From assembly GCF_014203325.1 (NCBI RefSeq), contig NZ_JACHIV010000001.1, forward strand, positions 1,675,501 through 1,739,500: a stretch of DNA of 64,000 bases. The letters are read 5' to 3'. The translations under genes were made by a program, and so were the position numbers. Each line of letters starts with the position of its first letter. The stretch's first letter is position 1. The notes beneath the pieces were generated by a model. That model was given only the letters and a program-made list of their open reading frames with translations. It made no database searches and was not told the DNA's origin. Below, one piece after another: positions 11,624 through 34,470 of this stretch. Origin of the DNA: Saccharopolyspora gloriosae (lineage in GTDB: Bacteria > Actinomycetota > Actinomycetes > Mycobacteriales > Pseudonocardiaceae).

Positions 11624-11642
11624 TCGTGTCGGGGGCGGCGGG

Positions 11643-11648: not shown

Positions 11649-11655
11649 CGGCGAC

Positions 11656-13008: not shown

Positions 13009-13240
13009 CGGCTCTTTTTGCTCTGGTGGTCATTTGGCGGACCCTCAGCGTCCTTCTCGCTGCGGGATCTTTTTCCCGAGTGGCTCCGCCACGAGGGAAA
13101 AAGCCGTCCTCGCGAGAAGGACGCTGAGAACCCGCAGGTGGTCACCTTTTTGACGTGGGCTATGTGCTTCGCACATGCAGGCACGGCTTCGCCGCCAGGC
13201 AGGCGTGCTTCGCCGCCTAAGGCACGTCTTCGCCGCTGGT
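13009..13240 (-). repeat. dispersed structured element, copy 1
   Basis: Copy 1 of four related intergenic elements, in the opposite orientation to the others. The main stem is CTCAGCGTCCTTCTCGC (13044-13060) with GCGAGAAGGACGCTGAG (13112-13128), 17 of 17 paired. The stem encloses the conserved core: a pyrimidine run TTTTTCCC pairing with GGGAAAAA and a GTGGC/GCCAC tip. The small hairpin is ATGTGC-TTC-GCACAT (13162-13176), followed to 13240 by imperfect units of the type GGCACGGCTTCGCCG. Its conserved end GAGCCGTCA, read on the minus strand, is the complement of the rarA stop and the bases after it. No gene lies in this gap. Confidence 0.8.
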
Positions 13241-13317
13241 TGGGTGAGGATGAAGGTTATTCGAGCGCCCGGGTGTCGGGTGCTGTGAGAACGACTTGAA
13301 GTAGTCAGGAGTCAGCT

Positions 13318-14277
13318 GTGCGCATCGTCGTCACCCGCAACGTTCCCGAGGCGGCCGTGGAGTTGCTGCGCGGCGCCGGGCAGGTGCACGTGTGCGAGCG
13401 GGATCAGGCGCTGGACCCCGCGGAGCTGCGGGAGGTCGTGGCGGGGGCCGACGGGCTCGTGACGATGCTCGGCGATCAGGTGGACGGTGCGGTCGCCGAC
13501 GCGGCCGGCTCGCAGCTGAAGGTCGTGGCGAACGTGGCCGTGGGCTACGACAACCTCGACGTGCCCGCGCTGGCCGCGCGAGGCGTCACCGTGACGAACA
13601 CGCCCGGGGTGCTCACCGACGCCACCGCCGATCTCGCGTTCGCGCTGCTGCTGATGGCGACCCGCAGGCTCGGCGAGGCCGAGCGGTTGATCCGCTCCGG
13701 TGAGCCGTGGTTCTTCCACCTCGGGTTCATGCTGGGCACCGGCTTGCAGGGCAAGACGCTCGGCATCATCGGCCTCGGTGAGATCGGGCAGGCCGTGGCG
13801 CGCCGGGCGCGCGCGTTCGGCATGCGGATCGCGTACTCGGGACGCCGCCGGGTGGCCGCCGACGTCGAGTCCGAACTCGACGCCCGGTACCTGACCAGGG
13901 ACGAGCTCCTGCGCGAAGCGGACGTGCTGTCGCTGCACTGCCCGCTCACCGAGCAGACCCGGCACCTGATCGACGCGGCGGCGCTGGCGACGATGAAACC
14001 GTCCGCGGTGCTCGTCAACACCAGCCGCGGCCCCGTCGTGGACGAGGCGGCGCTGGCCGAGGCGCTGCGCGCGGGCCGGATCGCCGCGGCCGGGCTGGAC
14101 GTGTTCGAGCAGGAACCGGCGGTGCACCCCGGACTGCTGGAGCTGGAGAACGCGGTGCTCATCCCCCACTTGGGGTCCGCGACGGTGGAGACGCGCACGG
14201 CGATGGCCGAACTGGCGGCACGCAACGTGGTCGGCGTCCTCACGGGGAACGGCCCGGTCACCCCGGTGGAGGCTTGA
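13318..14277 (+). CDS. D-isomer 2-hydroxyacid dehydrogenase
   Basis: A 319-residue NAD(P)-dependent enzyme of the glyoxylate/hydroxypyruvate reductase type. The Rossmann motif is LGIIGLGEIGQAVARRARAFGM (about residues 145-165). The catalytic arginine lies in LVNTSRGPVVDEAAL, the glutamate in FEQEP and the histidine in IPHLGSATVETR. GTG 13318 follows CAGGAG at 6-base spacing. It probably reduces glyoxylate or hydroxypyruvate, or oxidises D-glycerate; the sequence does not separate these. It stands alone between repeat element 1 and the alaS operon. Confidence 0.88.
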   Translation: MRIVVTRNVPEAAVELLRGAGQVHVCERDQALDPAELREVVAGADGLVTMLGDQVDGAVADAAGSQLKVVANVAVGYDNLDVPALAARGVTVTNTPGVLTDATADLAFALLLMATRRLGEAERLIRSGEPWFFHLGFMLGTGLQGKTLGIIGLGEIGQAVARRARAFGMRIAYSGRRRVAADVESELDARYLTRDELLREADVLSLHCPLTEQTRHLIDAAALATMKPSAVLVNTSRGPVVDEAALAEALRAGRIAAAGLDVFEQEPAVHPGLLELENAVLIPHLGSATVETRTAMAELAARNVVGVLTGNGPVTPVEA

Positions 14278-14401
14278 CCGCCGGACGCGCCGACGCACCG
14301 GAAGCGCCCGCCGCGGGGTGGCACGGTAACCTGGCGCGCGATCAAGACACCGGTGAATCCTTGCCGGTGGCAGGAAAACCACGTGGAAACCGGGAGGGCA
14401 C

Positions 14402-14803
14402 GTGACGCCCACGCAGATCGCCGCGCTGATCGTCGCGGGCGCGTTCGTGCTGCTGGTCGTGCTGCTGGCGATCCCGCTGGTCAAGCTCGGCCGAACGCTG
14501 GACGAGGCGACCGTCGCGATCCGCAAGGCGCACGAGAACACCGACCCGATCTTCACCGGGGCCAACTCGACGCTGACGCACGTCAACACCCAGCTGGAAC
14601 GGGTGGACGGCATCACCGCCAACGCCAAGACGGTCAGCGGCAACGTCTCGGCGTTGTCGTCGCTGTTCACGGCTACACTGGGTGGCCCATTGGTGAAGAC
14701 CGCGGCCTTCTCGTACGGGGTGAGCAAGGCTCTGCGAGCTCGCCGCAAGCGCAAGGAAGAGCCGTGGGGCAAGCACTCCCGCCGCAAGGGAGGACGCAAG
14801 TGA
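14402..14803 (+). CDS. DUF948 family membrane protein
   Basis: A 133-residue protein with one N-terminal transmembrane segment (IAALIVAGAFVLLVVLLAIPLV), a central helical region of coiled-coil character rich in Asn/Thr, and a very basic C-terminus (RARRKRKEEPWGKHSRRKGGRK). This build is DUF948, found next to alaS in many actinobacteria, function unknown. GTG 14402 has GGGAGG four bases upstream. The stop overlaps the next start by 4 bp. Confidence 0.82.
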   Translation: MTPTQIAALIVAGAFVLLVVLLAIPLVKLGRTLDEATVAIRKAHENTDPIFTGANSTLTHVNTQLERVDGITANAKTVSGNVSALSSLFTATLGGPLVKTAAFSYGVSKALRARRKRKEEPWGKHSRRKGGRK

Positions 14804-15141
14804 GGCGGATGTTCTGGTTCGGGGCCGGAATCGCGGCCGGTATCGCGTTGACCCGCAAGGTCAACGAGACCGCCCGCAAGGCGACCCCGAGCGGCGCTGC
14901 CGAGCAGCTCGGCGGTGCGATGCGCGAGCTCGCGGGTGCCGTGGGCTCGTTCGGCGCGGACGTGCGCGCCGGGATGAGCGAGCGTGAGCAGGAGTTGCAG
15001 GACGTCGTCGACGGCACCTCGATGCCGCGGCGGAGGTTCGACACCGACGCGATCGACGCTCGCCCGGCGGACGGCCGGGGGCGCCCGGCCGGTGATGGTG
15101 TGCGCGCACCGGCTCGGCGAGCTCGCCGGGCGGAACGCTGA
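14800..15141 (+). CDS. DUF6167-like small membrane protein
   Basis: A 113-residue protein starting at GTG 14800 inside the stop codon region of the DUF948 gene (GTGA overlap). The N-terminus MRRMFWFGAGIAAGIALTRK is a short membrane-associated segment; the rest is a charged helix and a disordered Arg/Pro tail. It matches the small protein usually found between the DUF948 gene and alaS in actinobacteria. Function unknown. Confidence 0.72.
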   Translation: MRRMFWFGAGIAAGIALTRKVNETARKATPSGAAEQLGGAMRELAGAVGSFGADVRAGMSEREQELQDVVDGTSMPRRRFDTDAIDARPADGRGRPAGDGVRAPARRARRAER

Positions 15142-15279
15142 ACGGCGGGCGTTCCGGGGAACCGGTCCGTCCGCGCCGGCTCACCGGTCGCGAACTGCTC
15201 CGGTTCCCCGAACGCCCCGCCTGCCACGTCCCGCCGCAGCCCCGCCCCCGACTCCGCAGCACCCTTCGAAGGAACCACC

Positions 15280-17955
15280 GTGCAGACCCACGAGATCCAC
15301 AGCCGCTTCCTGGAGCACTTCCGCAGCACCGGCCACACCGTGGTGCCCAGTGCCTCCCTGATCCTCGACGACCCCACCCTGCTGTTCGTGAACGCGGGGA
15401 TGGTCCAGTTCAAGCCGTACTTCCTCGGTGACGCCCCGGCGCCGTACCCGCGCGCGACGAGCATCCAGAAATGTGTGCGCACCGGCGACATCGACGAGGT
15501 CGGCAAGACGACCCGGCACAACACGTTCTTCCAGATGGCGGGCAACTTCTCCTTCGGCGACTACTTCAAAGAAGGCGCCATGGAGCACGCGTGGAAGCTG
15601 CTGACCTCCTCGGTCGCCGAGGGCGGTTACGGCATCGACCCCGAACGCCTGTGGGTCACCGTCTACGAGCACGACACCGAGTCGGCCGCGCTGTGGCGCA
15701 ACACCACCGGCATCGACCCGGCCCGCATCCAGGTGCGCGGCGCGGAGGACAACTACTGGGACATGGGCGTGCCCGGTCCCGGCGGCCCCTGCTCGGAGAT
15801 CTACTACGACCGCGGCCCCGCCTACGGCGTCGAGGGCGGTCCGAACGTCGACGAGGACCGCTACATCGAGATCTGGAACCTGGTGTTCATGCAGGACATC
15901 CGGGGTGAGGAGAGCCCGAAGAAGGGCGCTCCGCTGCTCGGTGAGCTGCCCACGAAGAACATCGACACCGGCATGGGCGTCGAGCGGGTGGCGTGCCTGC
16001 TGCAGGGCGTGGAGAACGTCTACGAGACCGACCTGGTGCGCCCGGTGATCGCGAAGGCCGAGGAGCTCTCCGGCCGCCGCTACGGCGCGAACCACGAGGA
16101 CGACGTGCGGTTCCGCGTGATCGCCGACCACGCCCGTTCCGGCGTGATGCTCGTCGGCGACGGCGTCACCCCCGGCAACGAGGCGCGCGGCTACGTGCTT
16201 CGCCGCCTGCTGCGCCGCATCGTGCGCTCCACCCGGCTGCTCGGCGTGCAGGAACCGGTGCTGGGCGAGTTCACCCAGGTCGTGCGGGACGCGATGGCCC
16301 CGGCGTACCCGGAGCTGCGCACCGATTTCGAGCGCATCGACTCGGTGATCCGCAACGAGGAAGAAGCGTTCCTGACGACGCTCACCGCCGGCTCGAAGAT
16401 CTTCGACGTGGCCGTCGCCGACACCAAGAAGTCCGGTGCGTCCCAGCTGCCCGGCGCGAAGGCGTTCCAGCTGCACGACACCTACGGCTTCCCCATCGAC
16501 CTCACCTTGGAGATGGCCTCCGAGCAGGGCCTGTCGGTCGACGAGCACGGTTTCCGCGAGCTGATGGGCGAGCAGCGCCGCCGCGCCAAGGAGGACGCGA
16601 AGGCGCGCAAGACCGGCCACGGCGACCTCTCGACGTACCGGACGCTGCTCGACCAGCACGGCACCACCGAGTTCATCGGCTACACCGACCTGGAGTCGCA
16701 GAGCCGGGTGCTGGGGCTGCTCGTCGACGGCGCCCCGGCGAAGTCGGCCGCAGCGGGCACCGAGGTGGAGCTGGTGCTCGACCGCACCCCGTTCTACGCG
16801 GAGGGCGGCGGCCAGATCGCCGACACCGGCACCCTGGTCGGCCCCGGCGTCGAGGTGCGCGTCTCGGACGTGCAGCGGTCGGTGCCCGGCCTGTTCGTGC
16901 ACCGCGCGAAGGTCGTCTCCGGTGAGCTGGGCGTGGACACCATGCTGGAAGCCGGTGTGGACCGCGACCGTCGCCGCGCCATCGAGCGCTCGCACTCCGC
17001 GACGCACCTGGTGCACGCCGCGGTGCGCGGTGCCTACGGCAAGCGCGCGGCGCAGGCGGGTTCGCTGAACTCGCCGGGCCGGATGCGCTTCGACTTCACC
17101 GCGCCCAGCTCGGTGTCGGCCTCCGTGCTGGGCGGCGTCGAGGAAGAGGTCAACTCCTACCTGCAGAACGACGTCGAGGTCTCGTCGTACACCACGACGA
17201 TGGACAAGGCGATGGAGCTCGGCGCGATGGCGCTGTTCGGCGAGAAGTACGGCGACCAGGTGCGAGTGGTCGACATGGGCGACTACTCGCGGGAGCTGTG
17301 CGGCGGCACCCACGTGGGGCGCATCGGCCAGCTCGGCGTGGTCAAGCTCGTCGCGGACTCCTCGGTGGGGTCCGGCGTGCACCGGGTCGAGGCGCTGGTC
17401 GGCATGGACGCGATGCGCCACATCAGCAAGGAGCACCTGCTGGTCACCCAGCTCGCGGAGCAGTTCAAGGTCCCGGCCGAGGAACTGCCGGAGCGCATCG
17501 CCGGTGTGGTCAGCAGGCTGCGCGGCGCGGAGAAGGAACTCCAGCAGCTGCGCGTGCAGCAGGTGCTGTCCTCGGCGGGCGAACTCGCCGGCCGCGCGAG
17601 CGACGTGCACGGCGTCAGCCTGGTCGCCGAGCAGGTCCCGGACGGCGTGGACGGCGGCGGGCTGCGCGCGCTGGCGGGCGAGATCCGCGGCAGGCTCACC
17701 GGCCGCCCGGCGGTCGTGGCGCTGTTCGCCGCGGAGCCCTCGGAAGGCAAGGTCTCCTTCGTCGTCGGCGTCAACGACGCCGCGCGGGACCTCGGCCTGG
17801 CCGCGGGCAAGCTGGTGCCCTCGTTCGCCGCGGAGGTCGGCGGCCGTGGCGGCGGCAAGCCCGACATGGCCCAGGGCGGCGGGACGAACCCGGCGGGCGT
17901 GACGGCCGCGATCGGCGCGCTGCACCGCGAACTGGACAAGGCGGTCCAGGGGTGA
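15280..17955 (+). CDS. alaS: alanyl-tRNA synthetase
   Basis: A full-length (891-residue) class II synthetase. The aminoacylation domain begins TRSTFLEHF-like ([20 protein letters not shown]) and contains motif 2 in [20 protein letters not shown]. The editing domain carries the zinc/catalytic set HSATH (about residue 570) and CGGTH (about 670). The C-terminal oligomerisation domain has [15 protein letters not shown]. It charges tRNA-Ala and clears mis-acylated Ser/Gly. GTG 15280 has GAAGGAACC upstream. It overlaps ruvX by 4 bp. Confidence 0.97.
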
Positions 17956-18434
17956 CTTCAGGTAATCGGGGCGTCGGCCCGGCCGCCGACGCCCCGGACC
18001 CCGGAGCGGGACGCCGGATCGGTGTGGACGTCGGCGCGGTGCGCGTCGGCGTCGCGCTGACCGATCCGTCCCCGATGCTGGCGACGCCGTTGGTGACGCT
18101 CCAGCGCGATGAGGACGCGGGCAGCGATCTGACGGAGCTGGTGCGCCTGATCGCCGAGCACGAGGTGGTCGAGGTCGTGATCGGCCTGCCGAAGACGCTC
18201 GCAGGACGGCACGGCAGTGCCGCGGATTCGGCGCATTCCTACGCCGAAGCCCTGGCCACCAGGATCGCCCCGATCCCGGTGCGCTTTCACGACGAACGGT
18301 TGACCACGGTCACCGCGAGCCGCATGCTCTCCCAACGGGGGGTTCGCGGTAAGCGACAGCGCGCCGTGGTCGACCAAGCCGCCGCAGTGGAGATCTTGCA
18401 GGCATGGCTTGACGCCCGGTCGCAGACCACCTGA
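17952..18434 (+). CDS. ruvX: Holliday junction resolvase-like RuvX/YqgF
   Basis: A 160-residue RNase H-fold protein. The [16 protein letters not shown] motif holds the first catalytic aspartate, [16 protein letters not shown] the second conserved block, [12 protein letters not shown] the glutamate, and [14 protein letters not shown] the last aspartate. In bacteria this family is needed for pre-16S rRNA 5' processing and may resolve junctions. GTG 17952 overlaps the alaS stop. About 20 residues precede the core, slightly longer than usual. Confidence 0.92.
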
Positions 18435-18445
18435 GAGGACCTTTC

Positions 18446-19663
18446 GTGAGCGACGATCTCGGCCTGTTCGCGGACGACGCGGGCGAGCCGCCCCGGCGCA
18501 GCCGCAGGGAGGCCCGCGAGCAGCGGGCCCAACTGCGCCGCCGGAAACGACGCGGTTCGGTGACCGCCCTGGCCGGACTGCTGGTCCTGCTGCTGGTGGG
18601 CGGAGGCGTGGTGTACGGCGCCATGCAGATACTGCAAATCGGGTCCTACGACGACTACGAGGGCGCGGGGACCGGCGAGGTGGTCGTGGAGGTCTCCTCC
18701 GGTGACACCGTCAGCCACATCGCGCAGACCCTGTCCAAGGCCGATGTGGTGGCGTCGTCGACGGCGTTCACCAAGGCGGCCGCGGAGAACAAGCAGATCA
18801 ACAGCATCCAGCCGGGCTTCTACCTGATGAAGTCGAAGATGTCCGGCTCCGCCGCGGTCGGGCACATCCTGTCCGCCGAGGCGAAGACCGGCCGCATCGA
18901 GGTGCGCGGCGGGCAGCGGCTGGAGGACCAGCTCAGCCCGGACGGCGGCAAAACGCCGGGCATCCTCACCAAGCTGGCCGAAGCGACCTGCACCGGTGAT
19001 GAGAGCCAGTGCACGACCTCGGAGCAGATGCACGCCGCGGCGGGTTCCGCGGACCTGGCTTCGCTGGGCGTGCCGGAGTGGGCCATCGAGGGCGCGTCGA
19101 AGGCGGAGCCGGAGCGGCGCCTCGAAGGGCTGATCATGCCGGGCATCTACGACGTGAAGCCGGGCGAACCGCCGGAAGAGGTGCTGCGCCAGGTGGTGAC
19201 GAAGTCCGCTGCGCTGCTGGAGGCGGCGGGGCTGCCGCAGGCCGCCGACAGCACCGGTCGCACCCCGTACGAGCTGCTGACCATCGCGTCGCTGGTGCAG
19301 AGCGAGGGCATCGAGCGGGACTTCGACAAGGTCTCGCGGGTGATCTACAACCGCACCACCGACCCGCAGATGCGCCTGCAGTTCGACTCGACGATCAACT
19401 ACCCACTGGACAAGCCGACGCTGCTGACCAAGTCGGAGGACCGCCAGCGGCCGGGGCCGTACAACAGCTACCAGAACTACGGCCTGCCGCCGACGCCGAT
19501 CTCCACGGTGAGCAAGGCGGCGGTGACGGCGGCGGAGAAGCCGGCCGACGGAACCTGGGTGTACTTCGTGAAGTGCTACCCCGACGGCACGTCCTGCTTC
19601 GCCACGACGATGGCCGAGCACGACCGCTACATCACCGAGGCGCAGCAACGTGGCGCGTTCTGA
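18446..19663 (+). CDS. mltG: endolytic transglycosylase MltG
   Basis: A 405-residue inner-membrane protein that cleaves nascent peptidoglycan strands. A basic cytosolic segment (RRSRREAREQRAQLRRRKRR) precedes one transmembrane helix (about residues 40-62), then a LysM-like domain (VSSGDTVSHIAQTLSKADVV) and the YceG domain. The catalytic glutamate is in LLTIASLVQSEGIERDFDKVSRVIYNR, and the substrate loop is QFDSTINY and YNSYQNYGLPPTPIS. GTG 18446 has GAGAGGACC upstream. It overlaps aroE by 14 bp. Confidence 0.93.
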   Translation: MSDDLGLFADDAGEPPRRSRREAREQRAQLRRRKRRGSVTALAGLLVLLLVGGGVVYGAMQILQIGSYDDYEGAGTGEVVVEVSSGDTVSHIAQTLSKADVVASSTAFTKAAAENKQINSIQPGFYLMKSKMSGSAAVGHILSAEAKTGRIEVRGGQRLEDQLSPDGGKTPGILTKLAEATCTGDESQCTTSEQMHAAAGSADLASLGVPEWAIEGASKAEPERRLEGLIMPGIYDVKPGEPPEEVLRQVVTKSAALLEAAGLPQAADSTGRTPYELLTIASLVQSEGIERDFDKVSRVIYNRTTDPQMRLQFDSTINYPLDKPTLLTKSEDRQRPGPYNSYQNYGLPPTPISTVSKAAVTAAEKPADGTWVYFVKCYPDGTSCFATTMAEHDRYITEAQQRGAF

Positions 19664-20510
19664 TCCAGCGGCCCGCAAGGCGGCGGTGGTCGGTTCCCCG
19701 ATCGGCCACTCGCTGTCCCCGGTGCTGCACGGCGCGGCGTACCGCGAGCTCGGGCTGACCGGGTGGACCTACGAGCGGTTCGACCGGGACGCCGACGGGC
19801 TCGCCGAGCTGATCGGCGGGCTCGGCCCGGAGTGGGCGGGCCTGTCGGTGACGATGCCCGGCAAGCGCGCCGCTCTCGGGTTGGCGAAGGAGGTCACCGA
19901 GCGGGCGGCCGCGGTGGGCGTGGCGAACACGTTGACCCGGCTGGCCTCGGGGGAGTGGTCCGCGGACTGCACCGACGTCGACGGGGTGACGGGGGCGTTG
20001 CGCGCCGCGGGCGGGTTCACCGGTGGCAGCCGGGCGTTGCTGCTCGGCGCGGGTGGTACCGCGGCGGCGGCGATGGCGGCGTTCGCGGAGCTCGGGCTCA
20101 CCGATGTGACGCTCGCGGTCCGCGAACCGGCGCGGGCCGGGGACGTGGTGCTGACCGCGGAGCACGTGGGCCTGCGGGTCTCGGTGCAGCGGCTCGATTC
20201 GATCGACCTGGACGCCGCCGCGTCCGAAGTGGACGTGCTGGTGTCGACGTTGCCCGCCGGTGCGGCGGATCCGCACGTGTCGGCGTTGGCGCGGGCGGCG
20301 TGCGTGCTGGACGTGATCTACCACCCGTGGCCGACTCCGCTGGCGAGCGCCGTCTCCTTCGCGGGCGGCCGGCTCGCGACCGGACTGGACATGCTGCTGC
20401 ACCAGGCGTTCGGCCAGGTCGAGCTGTTCACCGGTCGTCCCGCGCCACGGGCCGCGATGCGGGACGCGTTGTCCGCCGCGACCGGTGGTGAACTGGACCT
20501 GCCGCTCTGA
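19650..20510 (+). CDS. aroE: shikimate dehydrogenase
   Basis: A 286-residue NADP-dependent enzyme of the shikimate pathway. The substrate-binding motif is VVGSPIGHSLSPVLHGAAYR, with the catalytic lysine in SVTMPGKRAALG and the aspartate in CTDVDGVTGALR. The dinucleotide-binding loop is LLGAGGTAAAAMAAF. GTG 19650 lies inside mltG, so translation is coupled. The other shikimate genes resume at 26.1 kb after the PTS island and the prepilin peptidase. Confidence 0.93.
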   Translation: MARSDPAARKAAVVGSPIGHSLSPVLHGAAYRELGLTGWTYERFDRDADGLAELIGGLGPEWAGLSVTMPGKRAALGLAKEVTERAAAVGVANTLTRLASGEWSADCTDVDGVTGALRAAGGFTGGSRALLLGAGGTAAAAMAAFAELGLTDVTLAVREPARAGDVVLTAEHVGLRVSVQRLDSIDLDAAASEVDVLVSTLPAGAADPHVSALARAACVLDVIYHPWPTPLASAVSFAGGRLATGLDMLLHQAFGQVELFTGRPAPRAAMRDALSAATGGELDLPL

Positions 20511-20682
20511 CCCCGCGCGGCGACCGCCGAGGCCGGGCTCGCGCATCGGAACCGCACGGGGACCGGTCGTCGTCCTGCGGAGGTCACCGCGTGCGAGTGT
20601 CTTGTCGCGGATCGTCGTGCGGTGACCGTAAGTCGTACTCCTCGTCGGCTCATCGGCCGATCCGCCGGGCCGCGTTGATCCA

Positions 20683-20688
20683 TAGCGT
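20683..20688 (+). promoter_or_regulatory. possible protease gene -10
   Basis: TAGCGT is a common -10 form in this window and lies 41 bp before the protease ATG, with the ribosome-binding site between. Upstream, GGTCACCGC (20582-20590) and GCGGTGACC (20619-20627) form a spaced inverted repeat that could be an operator. No clear -35 was found. Confidence 0.3.
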
Positions 20689-20729
20689 CGTGTTCCGCAA
20701 GGAGATCAGCGCGATGCGAGGAGCACTGC

Positions 20730-21533
20730 ATGACCGAACAACGGATCAGCCCGGCCCGTCGAGTCCGAAGGGGACGGTCGGCGGCGGTCGGGGCGCTGGG
20801 AGCGTTGGCGCTCGCGGCGGCGCTGGCACCGACGGCGGTCGCCGCGGAGGCGGGCCCGGCGGTCGTCGGCGGCCACGACGCCACGGAGGAATACCCGTTC
20901 ATGGTGTCCCTGCAGCAGCAGGGCCAGCACTTCTGCGGCGGATCGCTGATCCGGCCGGACTGGGTGGTGACCGCGGCGCACTGCGCCGCCGCCGTGGAAC
21001 CCGAGGACGTCACGACCCGCATCGGCAGCGGGGACCGCACGACCGGCGGGGCGGAGACCGGAGTCGCCGAGCTCGTCGTGCACCCCGGCTACGACCAGGC
21101 CGCGCCCGGTGACGACGTGGCGCTGGTGCGGCTGGACCGGCCCGTCGAGCAGCAGCCGATCTCGCTGGCCGCGGACTCCGGCGCCCCCGGCGATCCGACG
21201 CGGATCATCGGCTGGGGCGTCACGTGCGACGACCGGGAGCAGTGCCCCGAGCTGCCGACGCGGCTGCAGGAGCTGGACACCGAGCTCGTCGCCGACGACC
21301 GGTGCGCCGACTTCGACGGGGCCACCGAGCTGTGCACCGACAGCCCCACCGAGAACGCGCAGGGCTGCAACGGCGACTCCGGAGGCCCGCAGCTCAAGGG
21401 CGAACCGGGACGCTGGGAACTGATCGGCGCGACCAGCCGCGACGGCGACGAGAGCCCGATCTGCGGCACCGGCCCCGGAATCTGGACCGACGTCACCGCC
21501 TACGCCGACTGGATCGACCAGACGACGTCCTGA
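20730..21533 (+). CDS. secreted chymotrypsin-fold serine protease
   Basis: A 267-residue S1-family protease. The signal peptide covers about residues 1-39, a short propeptide follows, and the mature chain probably starts at VVGGHDATEEYPF. The catalytic triad is H84 (TAAHC), D129 (DDVALVRL) and S217 (CNGDSGGP). The residue at the position of trypsin Asp189, six before the serine, is Gln211, so Arg/Lys preference is not expected. Several cysteines fit the usual disulphides. Start ATG 20730 has GAGGAG upstream. Monocistronic, followed by a perfect terminator. Confidence 0.9.
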   Translation: MTEQRISPARRVRRGRSAAVGALGALALAAALAPTAVAAEAGPAVVGGHDATEEYPFMVSLQQQGQHFCGGSLIRPDWVVTAAHCAAAVEPEDVTTRIGSGDRTTGGAETGVAELVVHPGYDQAAPGDDVALVRLDRPVEQQPISLAADSGAPGDPTRIIGWGVTCDDREQCPELPTRLQELDTELVADDRCADFDGATELCTDSPTENAQGCNGDSGGPQLKGEPGRWELIGATSRDGDESPICGTGPGIWTDVTAYADWIDQTTS

Positions 21534-21540
21534 CACAGGA

Positions 21541-21575
21541 GTGCGGTGCGGGATCAGCTAGATCCCGCACCGCAC
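21541..21575 (+). terminator. terminator after serine protease gene
   Basis: GTGCGGTGCGGGATC (21541-21555) and GATCCCGCACCGCAC (21561-21575) are perfect 15-bp arms around AGCTA, 7 bp after the stop. Confidence 0.8.
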
Positions 21576-21589
21576 GAACACCTACCACC

Positions 21590-21905
21590 ACCGCAACCCA
21601 GAAGGCCAAGCGAAGCGAAGCCCGCCTCGCGGCCGAAGGCCGTGCAGTGGGCGGACGAAGTCCCGCCTGCTTCGCGGCCGAAGGCCGTGCCTGGGGCTGC
21701 GAAGCAAGCCTGCCTTGCGGCGTAGCCGTGCCTGTATTCGCGCAGCGAATAGCCCACGTCACAAAGCCGACCACCGGCGGGTTCTCAGTCGGTCTCTCGC
21801 GAGGACGGCTTTTTCCCTCGTGGCGGAGCCACTTGGGAAAAAGATCCCGCAGCGAGAGACCGACTGAGGTTCCGCTAAATGACCACCCAAGCAGAACGAG
21901 CCGTC
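21590..21905 (+). repeat. dispersed structured element, copy 2
   Basis: Copy 2 of the family. It starts with imperfect units of the type GCCGAAGGCCGTGC, then the small hairpin TATTCGC-GCA-GCGAATA (21735-21751). A conserved spacer leads to the main stem CTCAGTCGGTCTCTCGC (21784-21800) with GCGAGAGACCGACTGAG (21852-21868). The core between the arms matches the other copies. The 3' end GCAGAACGAGCCGTCA reaches the complement of the ptsH stop codon. It separates the converging protease and ptsH genes. Short open frames through it exist on both strands but follow the repeat, so I do not treat them as genes. Confidence 0.8.
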
Positions 21906-22170
21906 AGCTATCCAGATCAGACCCGACGAGTTCTGCTAGTTGGTCGAGGGCCGCGTCCGCGCCGTCGCCTTCGGCGGCGAGCACGACCTCGTCGCCGTGA
22001 CCGGCGCCCAGCGTCATCAGACCGAGGATGCTGCCGGCCTGCACCGGTTCGGTGTCCGACTTGCGGATGGTGATCTGCACGGACTGCGCGGCGGCGGCTT
22101 TGGCGACCAGCGCCGCGGGACGCGCGTGCAGGCCGACCTTGCTGGCCACGGTGACCCGTCGCTCGGGCAT
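21904..22170 (-). CDS. ptsH: HPr phosphocarrier protein
   Basis: An 88-residue protein that carries phosphate from enzyme I to the EIIA proteins of the PTS. The active histidine lies in KVGLHARPAALV (residue 15-16 region). The regulatory serine region QAGSILGLMTLGAG is also present. ATG 22170 has AAGGGA upstream on the minus strand. It is the last gene of a dasR-like/EIIC/ptsH operon. The ptsI (enzyme I) gene is not in this window. Confidence 0.93.
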   Translation of the reverse strand: MPERRVTVASKVGLHARPAALVAKAAAAQSVQITIRKSDTEPVQAGSILGLMTLGAGHGDEVVLAAEGDGADAALDQLAELVGSDLDS

Positions 22171-22215
22171 GGGATTCCCTTTCCTCGAGGAACTGCGGTG
22201 GGGTGGGTCGGGACG

Positions 22216-24414: not shown

Positions 24415-24430
24415 TCCGGTCTATACCAGT
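24415..24430. promoter_or_regulatory. dre-type operator (DasR site)
   Basis: TCCGGTCTATACCAGT matches the dre consensus ACTGGTCTAGACCAGT at 13 of 16 positions, including the GGTCTA and ACCAGT halves. It lies between the divergent dasR-like gene (start 24305) and the EIIB gene (start 24594), placed to control both. The other 270 bp of the gap show no gene. Confidence 0.75.
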
Positions 24431-24593
24431 TGATGCGGAAGAATGCTGCCTCACACGGATGGGTGTCAAGGCGGGGATGTTTTTGTTGCCGCTTCGACAC
24501 TCGGTAACGCAAGATCGACCAACTGCGGGACCCTTCCGGCACCGCTAACGATCACCGACGGGCGAAGACCGCCGGAGTACGAAGGGAGCACGG

Positions 24594-25285: not shown

Positions 25286-25303
25286 CTCGAAGTCGATCGG
25301 AAG

Positions 25304-25330
25304 GCGGCCCGCCGGGCTCCGGTGGGCCGC
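25304..25330 (+). terminator. terminator of EIIB-EIIA operon
   Basis: GCGGCCCGCCGG (25304-25315) pairs with CCGGTGGGCCGC (25319-25330) with one G-U pair and a 3-base loop. TCTTTCGT follows, one of the few T-rich tails in the window. Confidence 0.75.
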
Positions 25331-25415
25331 TCTTTCGTGTCCGCCGCCGCAGCGGTCCGACACGCCGACGAATGTCGGCACCTCGCTTTCCGCGTTCGTC
25401 GGTGACGCTGGGCGC

Positions 25416-26054: not shown

Positions 26055-26095
26055 CCGATCCGCACCCGCATCGGCCGTGCGCAGGTGCTGCGTGG

Positions 26096-26101
26096 CAGGA
26101 T
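26096..26101 (+). promoter_or_regulatory. -10 element of leaderless aroC
   Basis: CAGGAT ends 7 bp before GTG 26109 and no ribosome-binding site precedes that codon, the pattern of a leaderless message. Its first base departs from the TANNNT form. Confidence 0.4.
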
Positions 26102-26108
26102 TTCGGGT

Positions 26109-27314
26109 GTGTTGCGTTGGATGACAGCCGGAGAATCGCACGGTCCCGCCCTGGTGGCGGTGCTGGAAGGCATGGTCGCCGGAGTGGAGGTGACCACCGC
26201 TGACATCGCGACCCAGCTGGAGCGCCGCAAGCTCGGCTTCGGCCGCAGCCCGCGGATGAACTTCGAATCCGACGAGCTGGAGATCATTGGCGGGGTGCGT
26301 CACGGCCGCACCCAGGGCGGTCCGATCGCCGTCCGCATCGGCAACACCGAATGGCCCAAGTGGGAACAGGTCATGTCCGCCGACCCGGTGGACGAGGACG
26401 TGCTGGCCGGGCTGGCCCGCAACGAGCCGCTGACCCGGCCGCGGCCCGGCCACGCCGACCTGCCCGGCATGCAGAAGTACGGCTTCGAGGAATCCCGCCC
26501 GGTGCTGGAGCGCGCCAGCGCCCGCGAGACCGCCGCCCGCGTGGCGGCGGGCACCGTCGCGCGCCGCTTCCTGCACCAGCTGCTGGGCGTCGAGATCGTC
26601 AGCCACGTGGTGAGCCTCGGCTCCGTCAGCGTGGCCGGCGAAGCGCTTCCCGGCCCGGACGACCTCGCTGCGATCGACGAGAATCCCGTGCGGGCCTTCG
26701 GCGGCGACGCGACCGAGCGGATGATGGCGGAGGTCGACGCGGCCAAGGCCGACGGCGACACGCTCGGCGGCGTCGTCGAGGTCATCGCCTACGGCCTGCC
26801 CGCGGGCATCGGCTCGCACGTGCACTGGGACCGCAAGCTCGACGCCCGGCTCGCCGGTGCGCTGATGAGCATCCAGGCGGTCAAGGGCGTGGAGATCGGT
26901 GAGGCGTTCGCGAACGCCGCCCGCCGTGGCAGCGCCGCGCACGACGAGATCTACCCGGCCGACGGCGCCAAGTGGGTCAGCCGCGGCAGCAACCGCGCGG
27001 GCGGGCTCGAAGGCGGCATCACCAACGGCGAACCGCTGATCCTGCGCGCCGCGAAGAAGCCGATCTCCAGCCTGCCGCGCGCGCTGGCGACCGTGGACAC
27101 CGTGACCGGTGAACCGGCGCAGGCGATGCACCAGCGCTCCGACATCACCGCCGTGCCCAGGGCCGCCGTGGTCGCCGAGACGATGGTCGCGCTGGTGCTG
27201 GCCGAGGCGGTGCTGGAGAAGTTCGGCGGCGACTCGCTGCCGGAGACCCGCCGCAACGTCGAGGGCTACCTCGCCGCGCTGGCCGAACGCGCCGAGAAGC
27301 GGCAGGTGCGCTGA
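26109..27314 (+). CDS. aroC: chorismate synthase
   Basis: A 401-residue FMN-dependent enzyme making chorismate from EPSP, the last shikimate step. Family signatures are [18 protein letters not shown] at the N-terminus, [26 protein letters not shown] and, toward the end, [24 protein letters not shown] 26109 gives the usual N-terminus [11 protein letters not shown]. It overlaps aroK by one base (TGATG), so aroC-aroK translation is coupled. Confidence 0.96.
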
Positions 27315-27859
27315 TGTCACCGCGCGCCGTGGTGGTCGGCCCCCCGGGTTCGGGGAAGACGACGGTGGGGCGGCTGCTCGCCGACCACCTCGGGGTGGAG
27401 TTCCGCGACACCGACGACGACGTGGTGCGCCTGGCGGGCAAGCCGATCCCGGAGATCTTCACCGTCGACGGCGAAACCGCGTTCCGCGAGCTGGAGGAGC
27501 AGGCGGTGGCCACGGCCCTCGCCGAGCACCCCGGCGTGCTCTCGCTCGGTGGTGGCGCGGTGATCTCCGAGCGCACCCGCAAGCTGCTCGCCGACCACCC
27601 GGTGGTGTTCCTGACGGTCGGACTCGCCGAAGGTGCGCGGCGCACGGGGCTGGCGCAGACCTCCCGTCCGCTGCTGGCCGGGGTGAACCCCCGCGCGACG
27701 TTCAAGGCCCTGCTGGACGCGCGGCTCCCGCTGTACCGGGAGGCCGCTGACGTGGAACAACCCACCGACGGCCTGGAGCCGTGGCGCCTGGTGGAGCTGG
27801 TGGCGGGCAAGCTCGACGAGATTCGTCCGGGCGGCGCCACCCGCGACGGCGAAGCGTGA
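27314..27859 (+). CDS. aroK: shikimate kinase
   Basis: A 181-residue P-loop kinase that phosphorylates shikimate. Walker A is VVGPPGSGKTTVGRLL; the shikimate-binding DTDDDV, FRELEEQAV and LSLGGGAVI motifs are present, with the lid arginine in TSRPLLAG. The last ten residues are a charged tail. ATG 27314 overlaps the aroC stop. Confidence 0.95.
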   Translation: MSPRAVVVGPPGSGKTTVGRLLADHLGVEFRDTDDDVVRLAGKPIPEIFTVDGETAFRELEEQAVATALAEHPGVLSLGGGAVISERTRKLLADHPVVFLTVGLAEGARRTGLAQTSRPLLAGVNPRATFKALLDARLPLYREAADVEQPTDGLEPWRLVELVAGKLDEIRPGGATRDGEA

Positions 27860-29487
<1,628 letters not shown>

Positions 29488-29716
29488 GGATCAGGTGTCC
29501 GGTGGCGGAGGTCGCCTCGGCCTCCGCCGCGCGACCGCCGAGTCCGGTGTGGACGTCGCGGCCGGTTCCGTTGCGGAGATCACTGCTCATCGGCTTCGCA
29601 CCGGCGGAAAAGGCCCCGAGCCCGCCGCGGTGACCGCCTAGACTGAGCTTCGCCCGGCGGTGGCCGGGCGTCCCGCGGGTGGCGGGTGATCGCACGGGGG
29701 AAGGCTCTTTCCGCAC

Positions 29717-31204
29717 ATGGTCGAACGGTCCCGCCTGTCCTGGTGGGCGCGCAGGGCGGTGCCGATCGGCGTGGTGTTCGCGCTGGGCGCGGCCTGCGCG
29801 CCGGGAACCCCGCCGCCGCGGCTGGAGCGGCCCGTGGAGCGCAGCCTGACCACCACGACGCTTCGCACCGCGAACGAGCGGTCGAGCGGATCGGTGGTGG
29901 CTTCCGGCGGGAACCCGGCGCCGTACAACTACGGGCCGACGGTGCTGGCCGAACCGGACGGCGAGGGCATGCGGTACCGGGCGTGGTGGTGCAGCCAGCT
30001 CCCAGCGATCGGGCCGCCCGGCGACGACGTCCTGTTCGCCGAATCCGGGGACCTGCAAGGCGATTTCGGCTTCTCCGGAGCTCCGGCCGTGCCGGTGTTC
30101 ACGGGTGAGCCCGGCGCGTTCGACGGCAAGCACACCTGCGATCCCTCGGTGCTGCGGACCGGCGGCCGGTTCCACCTGTACTACACGGGTGCGGCCGGGG
30201 AGCACGCGCACGGCAACGCGATCGGCGTCGCGACCAGCGGTGACGGCAGGTCCTGGCGGCGGGCGGCGGCCGGTGGGCCGATCGTGCGGCCGTCCGGCGA
30301 GGTGCGGCGGGACAACGACTACGGCGCGGGCCAGCCGTCCGCGCTGTTCCTCGACGGCTGGTTCTACCTGCTGTTCACCGACACCACAGCGTCCGGTGCG
30401 GGCTGGAACGGGGCGGGGCAGTTCGTGCTGCGCGCCAGGGACGCGGAGTTCTCCGACCGGGTGCAGGCGTTGACGGACTCCGGTTTCGAGCCCGCGGGCA
30501 CCACGGACGCGCCGCGACGCCGCTCGGTGGTGGACGCGTTCAGCGCGGACTGGATGTGGAGCGACGCGCTGGCGGCGTTCGCGATCGCGCACCAGACGGA
30601 GCGGGGAACGACGATCACCTTCTGGGACCGCGATTTCACCGGTCACCCGTACGAGCCGCTCCTGCTGCCGGGGCCGTGGCGTGAGGGCCCCGGTTTGGTC
30701 CGGGCTGACGACGGCCGCGCTCCCACATCCACCGCGGACCCGTGCGGCACGGTGCCGGTGGACCTGCTGCGGGCGACCGAGCCGGCCCCGGCGCCCACCG
30801 CGCTGCGCTCGTTCGGACTGGACGTGCCGGGGGTGGCCGGCTGCGCTGATCCGGAGCGGGCGCGCGGGGTGCTGGAGGCGTTCGGCGTCCCCTCGCCGCA
30901 GCGGACCGTGGACGTGGTGCGCGGCGGCCGGAAGGTGCGCGTGGAGCGTCGTTCGGTGGCCGAGACGATGGTCCGCCGAGTCCTCGACGAACGGGTCCCC
31001 GCGCTGGAGGAGGTGCCCACCGAGGGCACCATCCGCGCCGGCGCACCGGTCCTGCGCTCCCCGTCGGGCGAACTCGCCATCGTCGACGACCACGGCCGGA
31101 CGTGGACGATCGGCCCGGACACGGCCGAAGCCAACGACTCACCGATCTCCGACACCGACCAGCGAACCTGGGACGCAAGACCCCAAGTCGGCGACCTCCG
31201 CTGA
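29717..31204 (+). CDS. secreted lipoprotein, beta-propeller glycosidase-like
   Basis: A 495-residue exported protein. The signal sequence ends in a lipobox (FALGAAC, Cys about residue 27). The body has repeated short strands with D-P-S-V-L-R-x-G-G-R-F-H-L-Y-Y-T-G and GQPSALFLDGWFYLLFTDT, as in five-bladed propellers of the GH43/GH62/GH32 kind. I cannot place it in a family or name catalytic residues, so enzyme activity is not claimed. It lies between aroQ and pepQ, which are close neighbours in related genomes, so it is probably an insertion into that order. Confidence 0.65.
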   Translation: MVERSRLSWWARRAVPIGVVFALGAACAPGTPPPRLERPVERSLTTTTLRTANERSSGSVVASGGNPAPYNYGPTVLAEPDGEGMRYRAWWCSQLPAIGPPGDDVLFAESGDLQGDFGFSGAPAVPVFTGEPGAFDGKHTCDPSVLRTGGRFHLYYTGAAGEHAHGNAIGVATSGDGRSWRRAAAGGPIVRPSGEVRRDNDYGAGQPSALFLDGWFYLLFTDTTASGAGWNGAGQFVLRARDAEFSDRVQALTDSGFEPAGTTDAPRRRSVVDAFSADWMWSDALAAFAIAHQTERGTTITFWDRDFTGHPYEPLLLPGPWREGPGLVRADDGRAPTSTADPCGTVPVDLLRATEPAPAPTALRSFGLDVPGVAGCADPERARGVLEAFGVPSPQRTVDVVRGGRKVRVERRSVAETMVRRVLDERVPALEEVPTEGTIRAGAPVLRSPSGELAIVDDHGRTWTIGPDTAEANDSPISDTDQRTWDARPQVGDLR

Positions 31205-31299
31205 ACAGCCCCCACCCACCGATAGTGCTGCAACGGCAACGAACAAGCCCCTCCCCATCAAGGTCAACGGCAAGAAACACCAGCTCAACCCGGCCGCGA

Positions 31300-31650
31300 A
31301 GTCGCGCCGCGCACAGGCGAAGCCCCGCCTGCTCGGCAGCCGACGGCCGTGCTTGTGCGGCGAAGCCGTGCCTCGGGCGGCGGAGCAAGCCTGTTCGGCG
31401 GCCGTAGCCCGTGCTTTGCGGCGTAGCCGTGTCTTTGGACGAGCGAAGCGAAGTCTGCCTTGCGGCCGTAGGCCGTGCCTGTATTCGCGCAGCGAATAGC
31501 CCACGTCACAAAGCCGCTCACCGGCGGGTTCTCAGTCGGTCTCTCGCGAGGACGGCTTTTTCCCTCGTGGCGGAGCCACTTGGGAAAAAGATCCCGCAGC
31601 GAGAGACCGACTGAGAACCCGCCACTCGATCCCCGAAGCAGAACGACCCG
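31300..31650 (+). repeat. dispersed structured element, copy 3
   Basis: Copy 3 and the longest. It has more of the GGCCGTAGGCCGTGC-type units than the others, then the small hairpin TATTCGC-GCA-GCGAATA (31482-31498). The main stem is CTCAGTCGGTCTCTCGC (31531-31547) with GCGAGAGACCGACTGAG (31599-31615). GGCGGGTT before and AACCCGCC after extend it to 25 perfect pairs. From the small hairpin to the end of the stem it is nearly identical to copy 2. It lies between the lipoprotein gene and pepQ. The gap 31205-31706 contains no gene. Confidence 0.8.
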
Positions 31651-31693
31651 TGGCGCCTTCCCGCTACGAAAGAAACAGCAGGGGGCGTCTCGT

Positions 31694-31699
31694 TAGGCT
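31694..31699 (+). promoter_or_regulatory. -10 element of leaderless pepQ
   Basis: TAGGCT ends 7 bp before ATG 31707 with no ribosome-binding site, fitting a transcript that begins at the A of the start codon. The GTG at 31701 is less likely for that reason. Confidence 0.5.
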
Positions 31700-31706
31700 G
31701 GTGCGT

Positions 31707-32816
31707 ATGCCCGAGACCCACTCCCGCCGCCGCCATGCCCTGCGCGAACTGCTCCGCGAAGCCGACCTCGACGCCCTCTTGGTGACCGATCTGCTCAACA
31801 TCCGCTACCTCACCGGGTTCACCGGTTCGCAGGCCGCGGTGGTGGTGCACGCCGCCGATGAGCCGGGCGCGGAGCGGGCCACCGCGTTCAGCACCGACGG
31901 GCGCTATTCGACGCAGGCGGCCGAGCAGGTCCCGGATCTGGAGCGGATCATCGAGCGGCCCAGCGAGCTCGTGCTGGCCGAGCACGTCGCCAAGGCGCCC
32001 GACCGGTACCGGCGAACGGGTTTCGAGAGCCAGCACGTCACGGTCGACGGCCGCGATGCGCTGGCCGAGGCGGCGCCGGGCATCGAGCTCACCCGTGCCC
32101 CCGGCCTGGTCGAACGCCTCCGGCTGGTCAAGGATGCCGCGGAGGTGGACGCGATCCGGATGGCGTGCGCCGCCGCCGACCGGGCGCTGGCGGATCTCAT
32201 CGAGCACGGCGGGCTGCGTCCCGGCCGCACCGAGCTGGAGGTGGCCCGCGAGCTGGAGGCGCGGATGCTGGAGCACGGTGCCGCGGGTCCCGCGTTCGAC
32301 ACGATCGTCGCGGCGGGCGCGCATTCCGCGATCCCGCACCACCGGCCGACTTCGGCCGCGTTGGCGGCCGGGGACTTCGTGAAGATGGACTTCGGCGCTC
32401 TGGTCGACGGGTACCACTCGGACATGACGCGCACCGTGGTGCTGGGTGCTCCGGCCGACTGGCAGCGCGAGGTCTACGAGCTGGTGCACGCCGCGCAGGC
32501 AGCGGGTCGCGGCGCGGTCCGGGTGGGCACCGATGTGCGCGACGTGGACGGCGCGGCGCGCCAGGTGATCGACGACGCGGGGTACGGCGAGCGGTACCCG
32601 CACAGCGTCGGACATGGCGTGGGTCTCGAGATCCATGAGGCACCGGCGTTGTCGCAGCGGGGGGACGGTAGGATCGAAGAGGGGATGGTGGTCACCGTCG
32701 AACCCGGCGTGTACTTGCCGGAGCGTGGCGGGGTCCGCATCGAGGACACCCTGGCCGTGCGCGAGAGCACGCCGGAACTCCTCACCTTGACGACCAAGGA
32801 GCTCGTCGCCGTCTGA
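31707..32816 (+). CDS. pepQ: M24-family Xaa-Pro peptidase
   Basis: A 369-residue cytosolic aminopeptidase P/prolidase-type enzyme. The metal ligands can be read in order: D-x11-D in [20 protein letters not shown] in [16 protein letters not shown] in [10 protein letters not shown] and E in [10 protein letters not shown]. The N-terminal creatinase-like domain contains [18 protein letters not shown]. It precedes efp, as in mycobacteria. Whether it prefers Xaa-Pro dipeptides or longer peptides is not decided by sequence. Confidence 0.9.
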
Positions 32817-32908
32817 GCGCGGTGCGCGTGCGGCCGACATGCAGCGGCGGCGCCGCACTCGACTCAGCGAGTCAACCGCAGCCCGCATCACATGGAGAGA
32901 CCGGACAC

Positions 32909-33475
32909 GTGGCATCCACGAACGACCTCAAGAACGGACTCGTGCTCAAGATCGACGGCCAGCTCTGGTCCGTCGTGAACTTCCAGCACGTCAAGCCGGG
33001 CAAGGGCGGCGCCTTCGTGCGCACCACGCTGAAGAACGTGCTCTCCGGCAAGACCGTGGACAAGACCTTCAACGCAGGCGTGAAGGTCGAGACCGCGAAC
33101 GTGGACCGCCGCGAGATGACGTACCTCTACGACGACGGCACCGATTTCGTGTTCATGGAGCAGGACACCTACGACCAGGTCCAGGTCTCGCGCGGCGTGG
33201 TCGGTGACGCGGCGGACTACATGCTGGAGAACAGCAACGTGGTCATCGCCCGCCACGAGGGTGAGCCGCTGTACGTCGAACTGCCCGCCTCGGTGGAGCT
33301 GCACGTGCAGCACACCGACCCCGGCGTGCAGGGCGACCGTTCGACCGGTGGCACCAAGCCGGCGAGCCTGGAAACCGGCGCGGAGATCCAGGTGCCGCTG
33401 TTCCTGAACACCGGCGACAAGGTCAAGGTCGACCCGCGCGACGGTCGCTACCTGGGTCGCGTCAACACCAAGTGA
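32909..33475 (+). CDS. efp: elongation factor P
   Basis: A 188-residue, three-domain factor that helps ribosomes through polyproline stretches. It starts [17 protein letters not shown]. The tip loop reads [17 protein letters not shown], and the C-terminal OB domain ends [23 protein letters not shown] 32909 has GGAGAG upstream. It lies between pepQ and nusB in the usual order, with a hairpin before nusB. Confidence 0.97.
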
Positions 33476-33491
33476 TTCGTTCCCGCCGCAC

Positions 33492-33526
33492 CCGCGGCCC
33501 CGCCGGTTCGTCCGGCAGGGCCGCGG
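33492..33526 (+). terminator. hairpin between efp and nusB
   Basis: CCGCGGCCCCGCCGG (33492-33506) and CCGGCAGGGCCGCGG (33512-33526) pair at 14 of 15 positions around TTCGT. It lies 17 bp after efp and 40 bp before nusB, so it may end most efp transcripts or attenuate nusB. Confidence 0.6.
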
Positions 33527-33565
33527 TTCGTGCCGGGCGGGGAACAGTGGAAAGAGAGATGTGAG

Positions 33566-34045
33566 TTGGGCTCACGGAGCAAGGCCCGCAAGCGGGCGGT
33601 GGACGTGCTGTACGAGGCCGACCTGCGCGGTCTCGACGCGGTGACGTTGCTGTCCGAGCGGCTCGCCGCGCCCGAGGCCGCGCCGGTCGGGGACTACACG
33701 GTCACCCTCGTGGAGGGCGTCGCCGGCAACCGGCAGCGCATCGACGACGTGCTCGTCGAGCACTCCGAGGGTTGGACGCTGGCCCGGATGCCCGCGGTGG
33801 ACCGGGCCGTGCTGCGGCTGGGGCTCTACGAGCTGCTGTGGAGCGAGGACGTGCCGCCCGCGGTCGCGATCGACGAGGCCGTGGAGCTGGTGAAGGCGCT
33901 GTCCACGGACGATTCGCCGCGGTTCGTCAACGGCGTGCTGGGCCGCATCGCGGGTATCAGCGATCGGCTGCGCACGTCGATCCGCAACCTGGAGGCGGCC
34001 GAGGCGGCGGCGAAGGAACGCGCGGACTCCGAAGCCCAGAGCTGA
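33566..34045 (+). CDS. nusB: transcription antitermination factor NusB
   Basis: A 159-residue all-helical RNA-binding protein that acts with NusE in rRNA antitermination. The N-terminus SKARKRAVDVLYEADLRG is the usual arginine-rich RNA-binding helix. MPAVDRAVLRLGLYELLW and AIDEAVELVKALSTDDSPRFVNGVLGRIA are the family blocks. The start is taken as TTG 33566, because family proteins begin just before the ARKRA stretch and no ATG or GTG is available there. GTG 33530 is the only longer choice. Confidence 0.92.
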   Translation: MGSRSKARKRAVDVLYEADLRGLDAVTLLSERLAAPEAAPVGDYTVTLVEGVAGNRQRIDDVLVEHSEGWTLARMPAVDRAVLRLGLYELLWSEDVPPAVAIDEAVELVKALSTDDSPRFVNGVLGRIAGISDRLRTSIRNLEAAEAAAKERADSEAQS

Positions 34046-34194
34046 CCCGCGCCCATCGCGGGGTTCGCCGATCCCGGCGTCCTCCCGCGATTTCTCGCGC
34101 CGGTCCCGGTAATCGGTTTCTCGGCCACCCATGATCTTGCCGCTCCCAGTGAGCGGGCCTTTTGGTCGTCGCCTTCTCAGCGGGTGAAGTCGCA

Positions 34195-34470
34195 ACGGCG
34201 GCAGAAGTCACGCTTGCCTTCGCCTTGCTGCCGAAGGCCGTGCCTAGCGGCGTAGCCGTGCCTTTGGGCTGCGGAGCAAGCCTGCCTTGCGGCGAAGCCG
34301 TGCTTGGATTCGCGAAGCGAATAGCCCATGTCGAAAAGCCGCTCACCGGCGGGTTCTCAGTGAGCCTCTCGCGAGGACGGCCTTTTCCTTCGTGGCGGAG
34401 CCACTTGGGAAAAAGATCCCGCAGCGAGAGGCTCACTGAGGTTCCGCTACCCGGACACCCGGGCAGAACG
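34195..34470 (+). repeat. dispersed structured element, copy 4
   Basis: Copy 4, between the converging nusB and bldD genes. GCCGAAGGCCGTGCC-type units lead to the small hairpin ATTCGC-GAA-GCGAAT (34308-34322). The main stem is CTCAGTGAGCCTCTCGC (34356-34372) with GCGAGAGGCTCACTGAG (34424-34440), perfect over 17 bp. The variable middle of the stem differs from copies 1-3 on both arms together. It ends GGGCAGAACGAC about ten bases before the bldD stop. The gap 34046-34478 holds no gene. Confidence 0.8.

Follow-up and report, generated by a model that had tools for sequence, protein, structure and literature searches.

MITEs (miniature inverted-repeat transposable elements) and ERIC-like repeats are short, noncoding, dispersed, palindromic, and intergenic. 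Paired change in the two arms of a stem is standard evidence for a selected RNA structure, and gene conversion is said to have been proposed for palindromic repeats by Higgins in 1988 (cited in PMC3116915). Subfamilies of repetitive extragenic palindromic (REP) sequences carry alternative complementary residues in their stems (PMC3733652), as do the stems described here, and template switching at quasipalindromes homogenises inverted-repeat arms and inverts spacers (PMC8604942 and PMC8794818). In this report we focused on a 64,000-nt stretch of the Saccharopolyspora gloriosae genome (hereafter the window; positions 1,675,501–1,739,500 of the 6.83-Mb chromosome), which contains four copies of a dispersed hairpin element, and performed a computational analysis of the high-copy palindromic repeat family to which they belong. 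The general kind is known and the build is distinct, and the family clearly documents both turnover at shared sites and arm-matched variation. The original prediction, made from the letters of the window, was that the variable middle of the stem changes on both arms together; this observation is confirmed, and the interpretation that such paired change implies that the structure matters is partly supported. With hundreds of copies in one genome, paired change can be followed alongside sequence exchange and arm copying, so that the two causes become separable, and the family offers a bacterial test case for the long-standing proposal of palindromic-repeat evolution through gene conversion. It also adds a large repeat family to an actinomycete group that is reputed for its antibiotic producers.

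The likeness to REP/BIME/REPIN sequences and their RAYT transposases lies in the high-copy intergenic palindromes. Unlike REP palindromes, which measure 20–40 bp, the hairpin here is ~85 nt long within an element of 200–600 bp, its internal loop is conserved, and the GTAG/CGTC tetranucleotide is not at the foot of the palindrome, where the majority of 46 aligned members have GCGGGTTCTCAG and CTGAGGTTCCGC. Moreover, the RAYT family (Y1_Tnp, PF01797) has no match in the four genomes of the genus that bear the conserved core (G000, which is the window's genome, to G003), and has one match in G004 and two in G005. We therefore rejected a REP/RAYT identity. The family is short, noncoding, dispersed, palindromic, and intergenic like MITEs and ERIC-like repeats, but its variable part lies inside the stem, and a terminal inverted repeat with target duplication is not demonstrated. 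With quasipalindrome template switching it shares both arm homogenisation and spacer inversion, but this is a mutation mechanism rather than an element family, and its substrate in the present case would be hundreds of dispersed, sequence-exchanging copies. A known RNA family was also discarded, as Rfam gave no match at or above the gathering score in the window, and a relaxed search of 21500–21950 gave ten matches that are all below threshold. A phage or plasmid origin found no favour either, one window copy being without a match in plasmid or phage collections, from which near relatives may be missing.

The intergenic places that the hairpins occupy are mostly fixed, whereas the hairpin at each of them appears to have been exchanged as a whole for another version, nearly always one with matched arms. 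Copies were parsed by a conserved frame, GCGGGTT-CTCAG-N7-CTCGC-GAGGACRGC-(variable inner stem and apical hairpin)-GATCCCGCA-GCGAG-N7'-CTGAG-GTTCCGC, which yielded 208 elements in sampled stretches of the window's genome, mostly picked around known copies, and 76 in Saccharopolyspora sp. NFXS83, the nearest named relative found (98% in one protein, 94–97% in DNA over three long syntenic blocks). These elements fall into several inner-stem subfamilies. As predicted, all four window copies have perfect 17-bp CTCAG-N7-CTCGC stems with three different N7, each exactly complemented on the opposite arm. Exact complementarity of N7 is seen in 161 of the 208 parsed copies of the window's genome (77%; mean 12.6 and maximum 24 in 2000 shuffles), in 51/76 copies of NFXS83 (10.4 when shuffled), and in 32/34 copies of G002 (no shuffle control), most of which have one exact core version and lie in its first 1.6 Mb. 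Chance pairing of the arms is excluded in the sampled copies, and the two arms do not vary independently. Three or more N7 mismatches are found in 11 copies in G000 and 11 in NFXS83, some of which join two alleles known elsewhere. Single mismatches in these two genomes together comprise 15 T.G and 10 C.A, and do not clearly favour either strand as RNA, nor do they favour RNA over DNA.

What happens at shared loci is best seen in 41 flank-paired loci from the sampled stretches of NFXS83 and G000, where the 5' N7 (N5) is identical at two and the 3' N7 (N3) at three, while ~2.8 identical N7 would be expected by chance from the frequencies of exactly paired alleles. At 15 flank-paired loci involving G002, the 5' N7 is identical at none. 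The retention index between NFXS83/G000 orthologs was computed for ten segments that together reach 15 nt to the left and 10 nt to the right of the stem. It is −0.03 to 0.03 in nine of them and 0.12 (p 0.19) in the tenth, the 5' strand that adjoins the internal loop; beyond these hairpin-proximal segments it is 0.12–0.22. Arms, clamps, inner parts, and nearest flanks of orthologs are no more alike than those of random pairs (p 0.19 to 1), and from ~10 nt on the right and 16 nt on the left orthologs are more alike (p 0.008 or less); right junctions are collinear by eye at most of the 41 loci. The allele pools overlap, since of the 51 NFXS83 copies with exact pairing 45 have an allele that occurs in G000 too, and the common versions differ between genomes, TTGGTCT occurring in 14/34 G002 copies and 0/208 G000 copies. 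Entire elements can also be present in one strain and absent from another, which is the case for window copy 2 and for NFXS83 C35:33134. In a sample biased towards places with copies, a counterpart is missing for 1/52 and 1/45 elements with both flanks covered. The single clean empty site, in G000 opposite NFXS83 C35:33134, shows by eye no target duplication; two further empty sites, those of copy 2 and G000 2,146,160, are too diverged to show one.

Linkage within copies, computed on 176 G000 copies with a common inner stem and given as the share of possible excess information, points in the same direction. Partner bases of the two arms are linked at 0.63–0.77, same-arm neighbours at 0.11–0.29, and arm bases with the two middle sites at 0.05 or less. 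The outer sites −8 and +8 are linked at 0.30 across the hairpin, whereas their linkage with what lies between them, namely the arm bases and sites R and Y, is 0.05 or less. Watson-Crick pairing was rejected as the source of this −8/+8 linkage, the commonest states being C/C and G/T. The order of linkage, mostly the reverse of linear decay, fits an inside that is replaced against a retained outside, plus a force that couples partners.

Footprints of arm-to-arm copying bear on template switching, which the original prediction had raised as an alternative to a structural role. Among 289 copies, five have the left flank copied onto the right, including window copy 3, and none the reverse; three have the spacer inverted relative to the flanks, and 18 are unclassified. 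Arm homogenisation that spreads into non-stem flank and spacer inversion, both marks of a template-switch substrate, are thus found in the family, and these footprints support arm copying. In a toy simulation of conversion with or without arm copying (36 parameter sets, selection not included), exact pairing amounted to 0–3% without arm copying and 33–98% with it, against an observed 77%. Since whole hairpins are apparently exchanged at orthologous loci and arms bear footprints of copying, paired change alone is no proof of selection on structure.

A role for the structure is better supported by another feature of the element. From the outside inward, the element consists of a left module (a mini-hairpin tract in type I, one hairpin TCAGCGGCGAAGCCGCTGA in type II), GCGGGTT, the stem, an internal loop (GAGGACRG / ATCCCGCA), an AT-rich inner stem, and an apical hairpin; on the right, the stem is followed by GTTCCGC and a short tail. 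In an alignment (A1) of 46 members chosen for diverse arms and inner stems, from which one of 47 picks was excluded, 94.4% of pair cells are standard, double changes occur at 20 of 35 pairs, and the covariation score is 0.267, as compared with 0.106 when shuffled; sliding the partners gives no more than 0.087. Covariation extends to the inner stem (6/9 pairs), and a copy in G017 (L346) has the clamp CTGGC in place of CTCGC, matched by GCCAG. The structural role gains support because the asymmetric internal loop stays conserved, including in other genera, while both neighbouring stems vary with compensation. As no copy has this loop made symmetric (≤3 mismatches allowed), except one composite locus matched on both strands, we suggest that the internal loop is under constraint. 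A core-less short hairpin was considered as the ancestral form; a pattern search with ≤1 mismatch found none in G000, and one occurs in the sampled NFXS83 locus L031, which is therefore read as a deletion between GCGAG repeats and not as an ancestor.

The genomic context was described from simple gene calls, with a background of 800 intergenic regions no shorter than 50 bp, among them regions that bear elements. Of the 208 G000 elements, 206 have a called gene on either side; of the remaining two, one overlaps a gene and the other has no neighbour in its stretch. The neighbours of these 206 elements are convergent in 100 cases, both antisense in 67, both sense in 33, and divergent in 6, as compared with 150 convergent and 200 divergent among the 800 background regions. 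The right-hand gene ends towards the element in 167/206, and the median stem-gene distance over all orientations is 45 nt. This bias towards gene 3' ends fits either promoter avoidance or a 3'-end role, without separating them. In the 260 nt to the left of the element, 214 of 308 hairpins are triloops, 183 of the 214 being C(GNA)G, whereas the control flank has 32 triloops in 149. C(GNA)G loops are especially stable in DNA.

Taken together, these observations make it probable, though well short of certain, that other copies overwrite resident hairpins through gene conversion and that pairing is kept by arm copying, by selection, or by both. Ectopic conversion would have its centre in the hairpin and might follow the stalling of replication by, or the cutting of, the hairpin or a cruciform. 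Template-switch copying between arms would then restore pairing, and/or only pairing copies would survive or spread, and a putative trans-acting factor that recognises the conserved asymmetric internal loop could explain amplification. We also entertain, much more tentatively, a drive-like cassette, in which the structure would provoke a break or stall and repair would copy a sibling hairpin from the centre outward, so that well-pairing hairpins overwrite their siblings at fixed loci and every species ends up dominated by N7 versions of its own (TTGGTCT in G002, CGGCTTC in NFXS83), with no element-encoded enzyme.

Several points weigh against overwriting by conversion coupled to arm copying or selection. 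It is the outcome of conversion that is seen, the event being something we infer, and selection for pairing would yield identical arm statistics. Pairing of loci is imperfect: the right flanks of the pairs at NFXS83 C36:23615 (one of the two that share N5) and C36:17207 align poorly, ungapped right-flank identity at 30–39 nt is 0.51, and the NFXS83 assembly is a draft of 70 contigs in which repeats can be misassembled. Turnover is not seen everywhere, as the G004/G005 ortholog pairs L334/L335 and L320/L321 carry the same arms (two pairs, by eye). Exchange is not free, arms being associated with the type of left module (z 6.4 and 8.5, 140 copies); in G000 there is linkage between the 3' arm and site +8 (p 0.001) and between the 5' arm and site R (p 0.003). 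In NFXS83 the partner of the 5' arm is site Y (p 0.003), and the linkage seen in G002 is weak (p 0.01–0.05). Clamp variants are one-sided in 88 cases (some of them indel-shifted), paired in 3, and changed on both sides without pairing in 3, a preponderance that argues against very frequent arm copying. Finally, the −8/+8 linkage reached at best 0.10 in any setting of the simulation, against the observed 0.30.

Three other explanations have to be set against the same data. If the element were a functional RNA (a terminator, a 3'-end stabiliser, or a protein-binding RNA) whose N7 pairs are kept by compensatory selection, the strong covariation of the helix, the conserved internal loop, and the excess of convergent and scarcity of divergent neighbours would all follow. 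However, single mismatches do not clearly prefer G-U to its equivalent on the minus strand, orientation relative to transcription is mixed, the inner T-tract is absent from some subfamilies, and copy 2 just follows another hairpin that its element-free ortholog has as well; compensation by itself leaves the hairpin-wide scrambling at shared loci unexplained, and we regard this reading as possible but doubtful. A nonautonomous mobile element, moved as single-stranded DNA by a putative transposase, would turn the N7 changes into repeated insertion and replacement at preferred sites, and is consistent with the patchy distribution and high copy number, the presence and absence at copy 2 and C35:33134, the many C(GNA)G loops on the left, and the diverged members in Saccharopolyspora kobensis and Saccharopolyspora indica that lie, in the opposite orientation, upstream of the gene that copy 3 precedes. 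This is unlikely in view of the negative Y1 search in G000–G003, which covered that transposase family only, of the rarity of missing counterparts in a sample biased as noted, and of the clean empty site, a single one, where inspection by eye showed no target duplication. In addition, the sampled stretches, to which this search was confined, contain no pair of half-elements enclosing a gene that could represent an autonomous copy. Pure ectopic conversion with no force coupling the arms would account for the chimeric arms and the shared allele pool but not for partner bases being far better linked than neighbours or middle sites, and it is disfavoured by the uncoupled simulations; we consider it highly improbable.

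The distribution of the family depends on how it is searched. A 37-nt core, allowing ≤3 mismatches, was found among 60 genomes at 265 places in G000, 72 in G001, 144 in G002, and 30 in G003, the G001 counts being equal to those of the NFXS83 genome; the other 56, which include G004, G005, and 54 more distant relatives, have no such match. The clade-restricted family that this pattern suggests is too narrow, as a covariance model built from the 46 aligned members finds diverged members more widely. This model has at least 149–150 matches in each of G000–G003 (matches rather than places, because the near-symmetric hairpin can match on both strands at one place), 48 in G004, and 43 in G005, the last two corresponding to 38 and 33 places. 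When the best 51 candidates per genome are considered, matches occur in at least 20 of 80 sampled Pseudonocardiaceae genomes, the window's included, and in at least 12 of 46 genera. The model also matches six of 80 named loci that surround one gene, the weakest with an E value of 3e-4: NFXS83, S. kobensis, Saccharopolyspora hirsuta, S. indica, Saccharopolyspora rhizosphaerae, and Actinopolyspora righensis. A search of literature titles and abstract openings, subscription journals being outside it, found no prior account of such a repeat in Saccharopolyspora or Pseudonocardiaceae, and term searches of the available parts of two articles returned no mention of Saccharopolyspora (PMC12306157 and PMC3733652) or of Pseudonocardia (PMC12306157). 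This large dispersed-hairpin family of Saccharopolyspora is apparently undescribed so far.

In the window, copy 1 is on the minus strand, with its central hairpin at 13044–13128, N7 CGTCCTT, and G at the R site of the core. Its 5' arm, CTCAG-CGTCCTT-CTCGC, is at 13112–13128 (read 13128–13112) and its 3' arm, GCGAG-AAGGACG-CTGAG, at 13044–13060 (read 13060–13044). Thus, whereas the opposite arms of copies 2–4 start where the original prediction placed them, the position it gave for copy 1, 13112, is the inner end of the 5' arm, and the opposite arm starts at 13060. The approximate whole element, of type I (mini-hairpin tract, hairpin, and right tail), spans 13009–13236, with outer limits set by eye, and is flanked by a RarA/MgsA-like gene (11626–13008, plus strand) and a D-2-hydroxyacid dehydrogenase gene (13318–14277, plus strand). 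The other three copies are on the plus strand. Copy 2 has its hairpin at 21784–21868, with TCGGTCT as N7 on both arms (21784–21800 with 21852–21868), within an approximate element at 21585–21902, the right end of which abuts the stop of a minus-strand gene called at 21904–22170, which we take to be HPr-like. It comes directly after the other hairpin mentioned above, and it is missing from the orthologous NFXS83 site. Copy 3 has its hairpin at 31531–31615 (arms 31531–31547 with 31599–31615; N7 TCGGTCT), a mini-hairpin tract of period 64 at 31296–31482, and approximate limits, by eye, of 31290–31650. Its right flank, AACCCGCC, is the exact complement of its left flank, GGCGGGTT, and its NFXS83 ortholog has CGTCCTT on both arms and an identical core. 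In S. kobensis (L036, 9735–9827) and S. indica (L037, 9711–9804), the diverged member is just upstream of the gene that copy 3 also precedes, presumably peptidase-like, in the opposite orientation. Copy 4 has its hairpin at 34356–34440 (arms 34356–34372 with 34424–34440; N7 TGAGCCT) in an element of about 34200–34470, with outer limits again by eye, between convergent genes (33599–34045, plus, and 34479–34967, minus), and the NFXS83 counterpart is a short, core-less hairpin. The three copies that were folded as RNA gave z-scores of −8.0 (copy 1), −9.3 (copy 2), and −5.7 (copy 4), and copy 2 folded as DNA gave −8.1 and −7.5 for the two strands.

Some variants of the element deserve mention. The locus L155 (G000, ~2,745,076–2,745,107) is a composite, its two halves differing in their inner stems and joined head to head at a CTCGCGAG palindrome. 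Some elements are extended rightward, by eye, by a small hairpin (GTGGAAG...CTTCCAC) and units of ~33 bp, examples being L127 after 1580 (G000, ~366,150–366,400), L131, L160, L166, L174, and L270. In L012, L028, and G000 2,851,704 and 3,808,923, a variant 3' strand of the internal loop, ending in CCAGGGGCGCA, takes the place of GATCCCGCA. Elsewhere in the window, a two-gene insert at 39768–41557, coding for an AAA_21 ATPase and a DUF4276 protein, is absent at the orthologous NFXS83 site; its best PADLOC matches are HEC-01A and HEC-01B, which makes it a candidate for anti-phage defence. At 53902–54496, a 311-bp unit is tandemly duplicated (1.9 copies, 84% matches).

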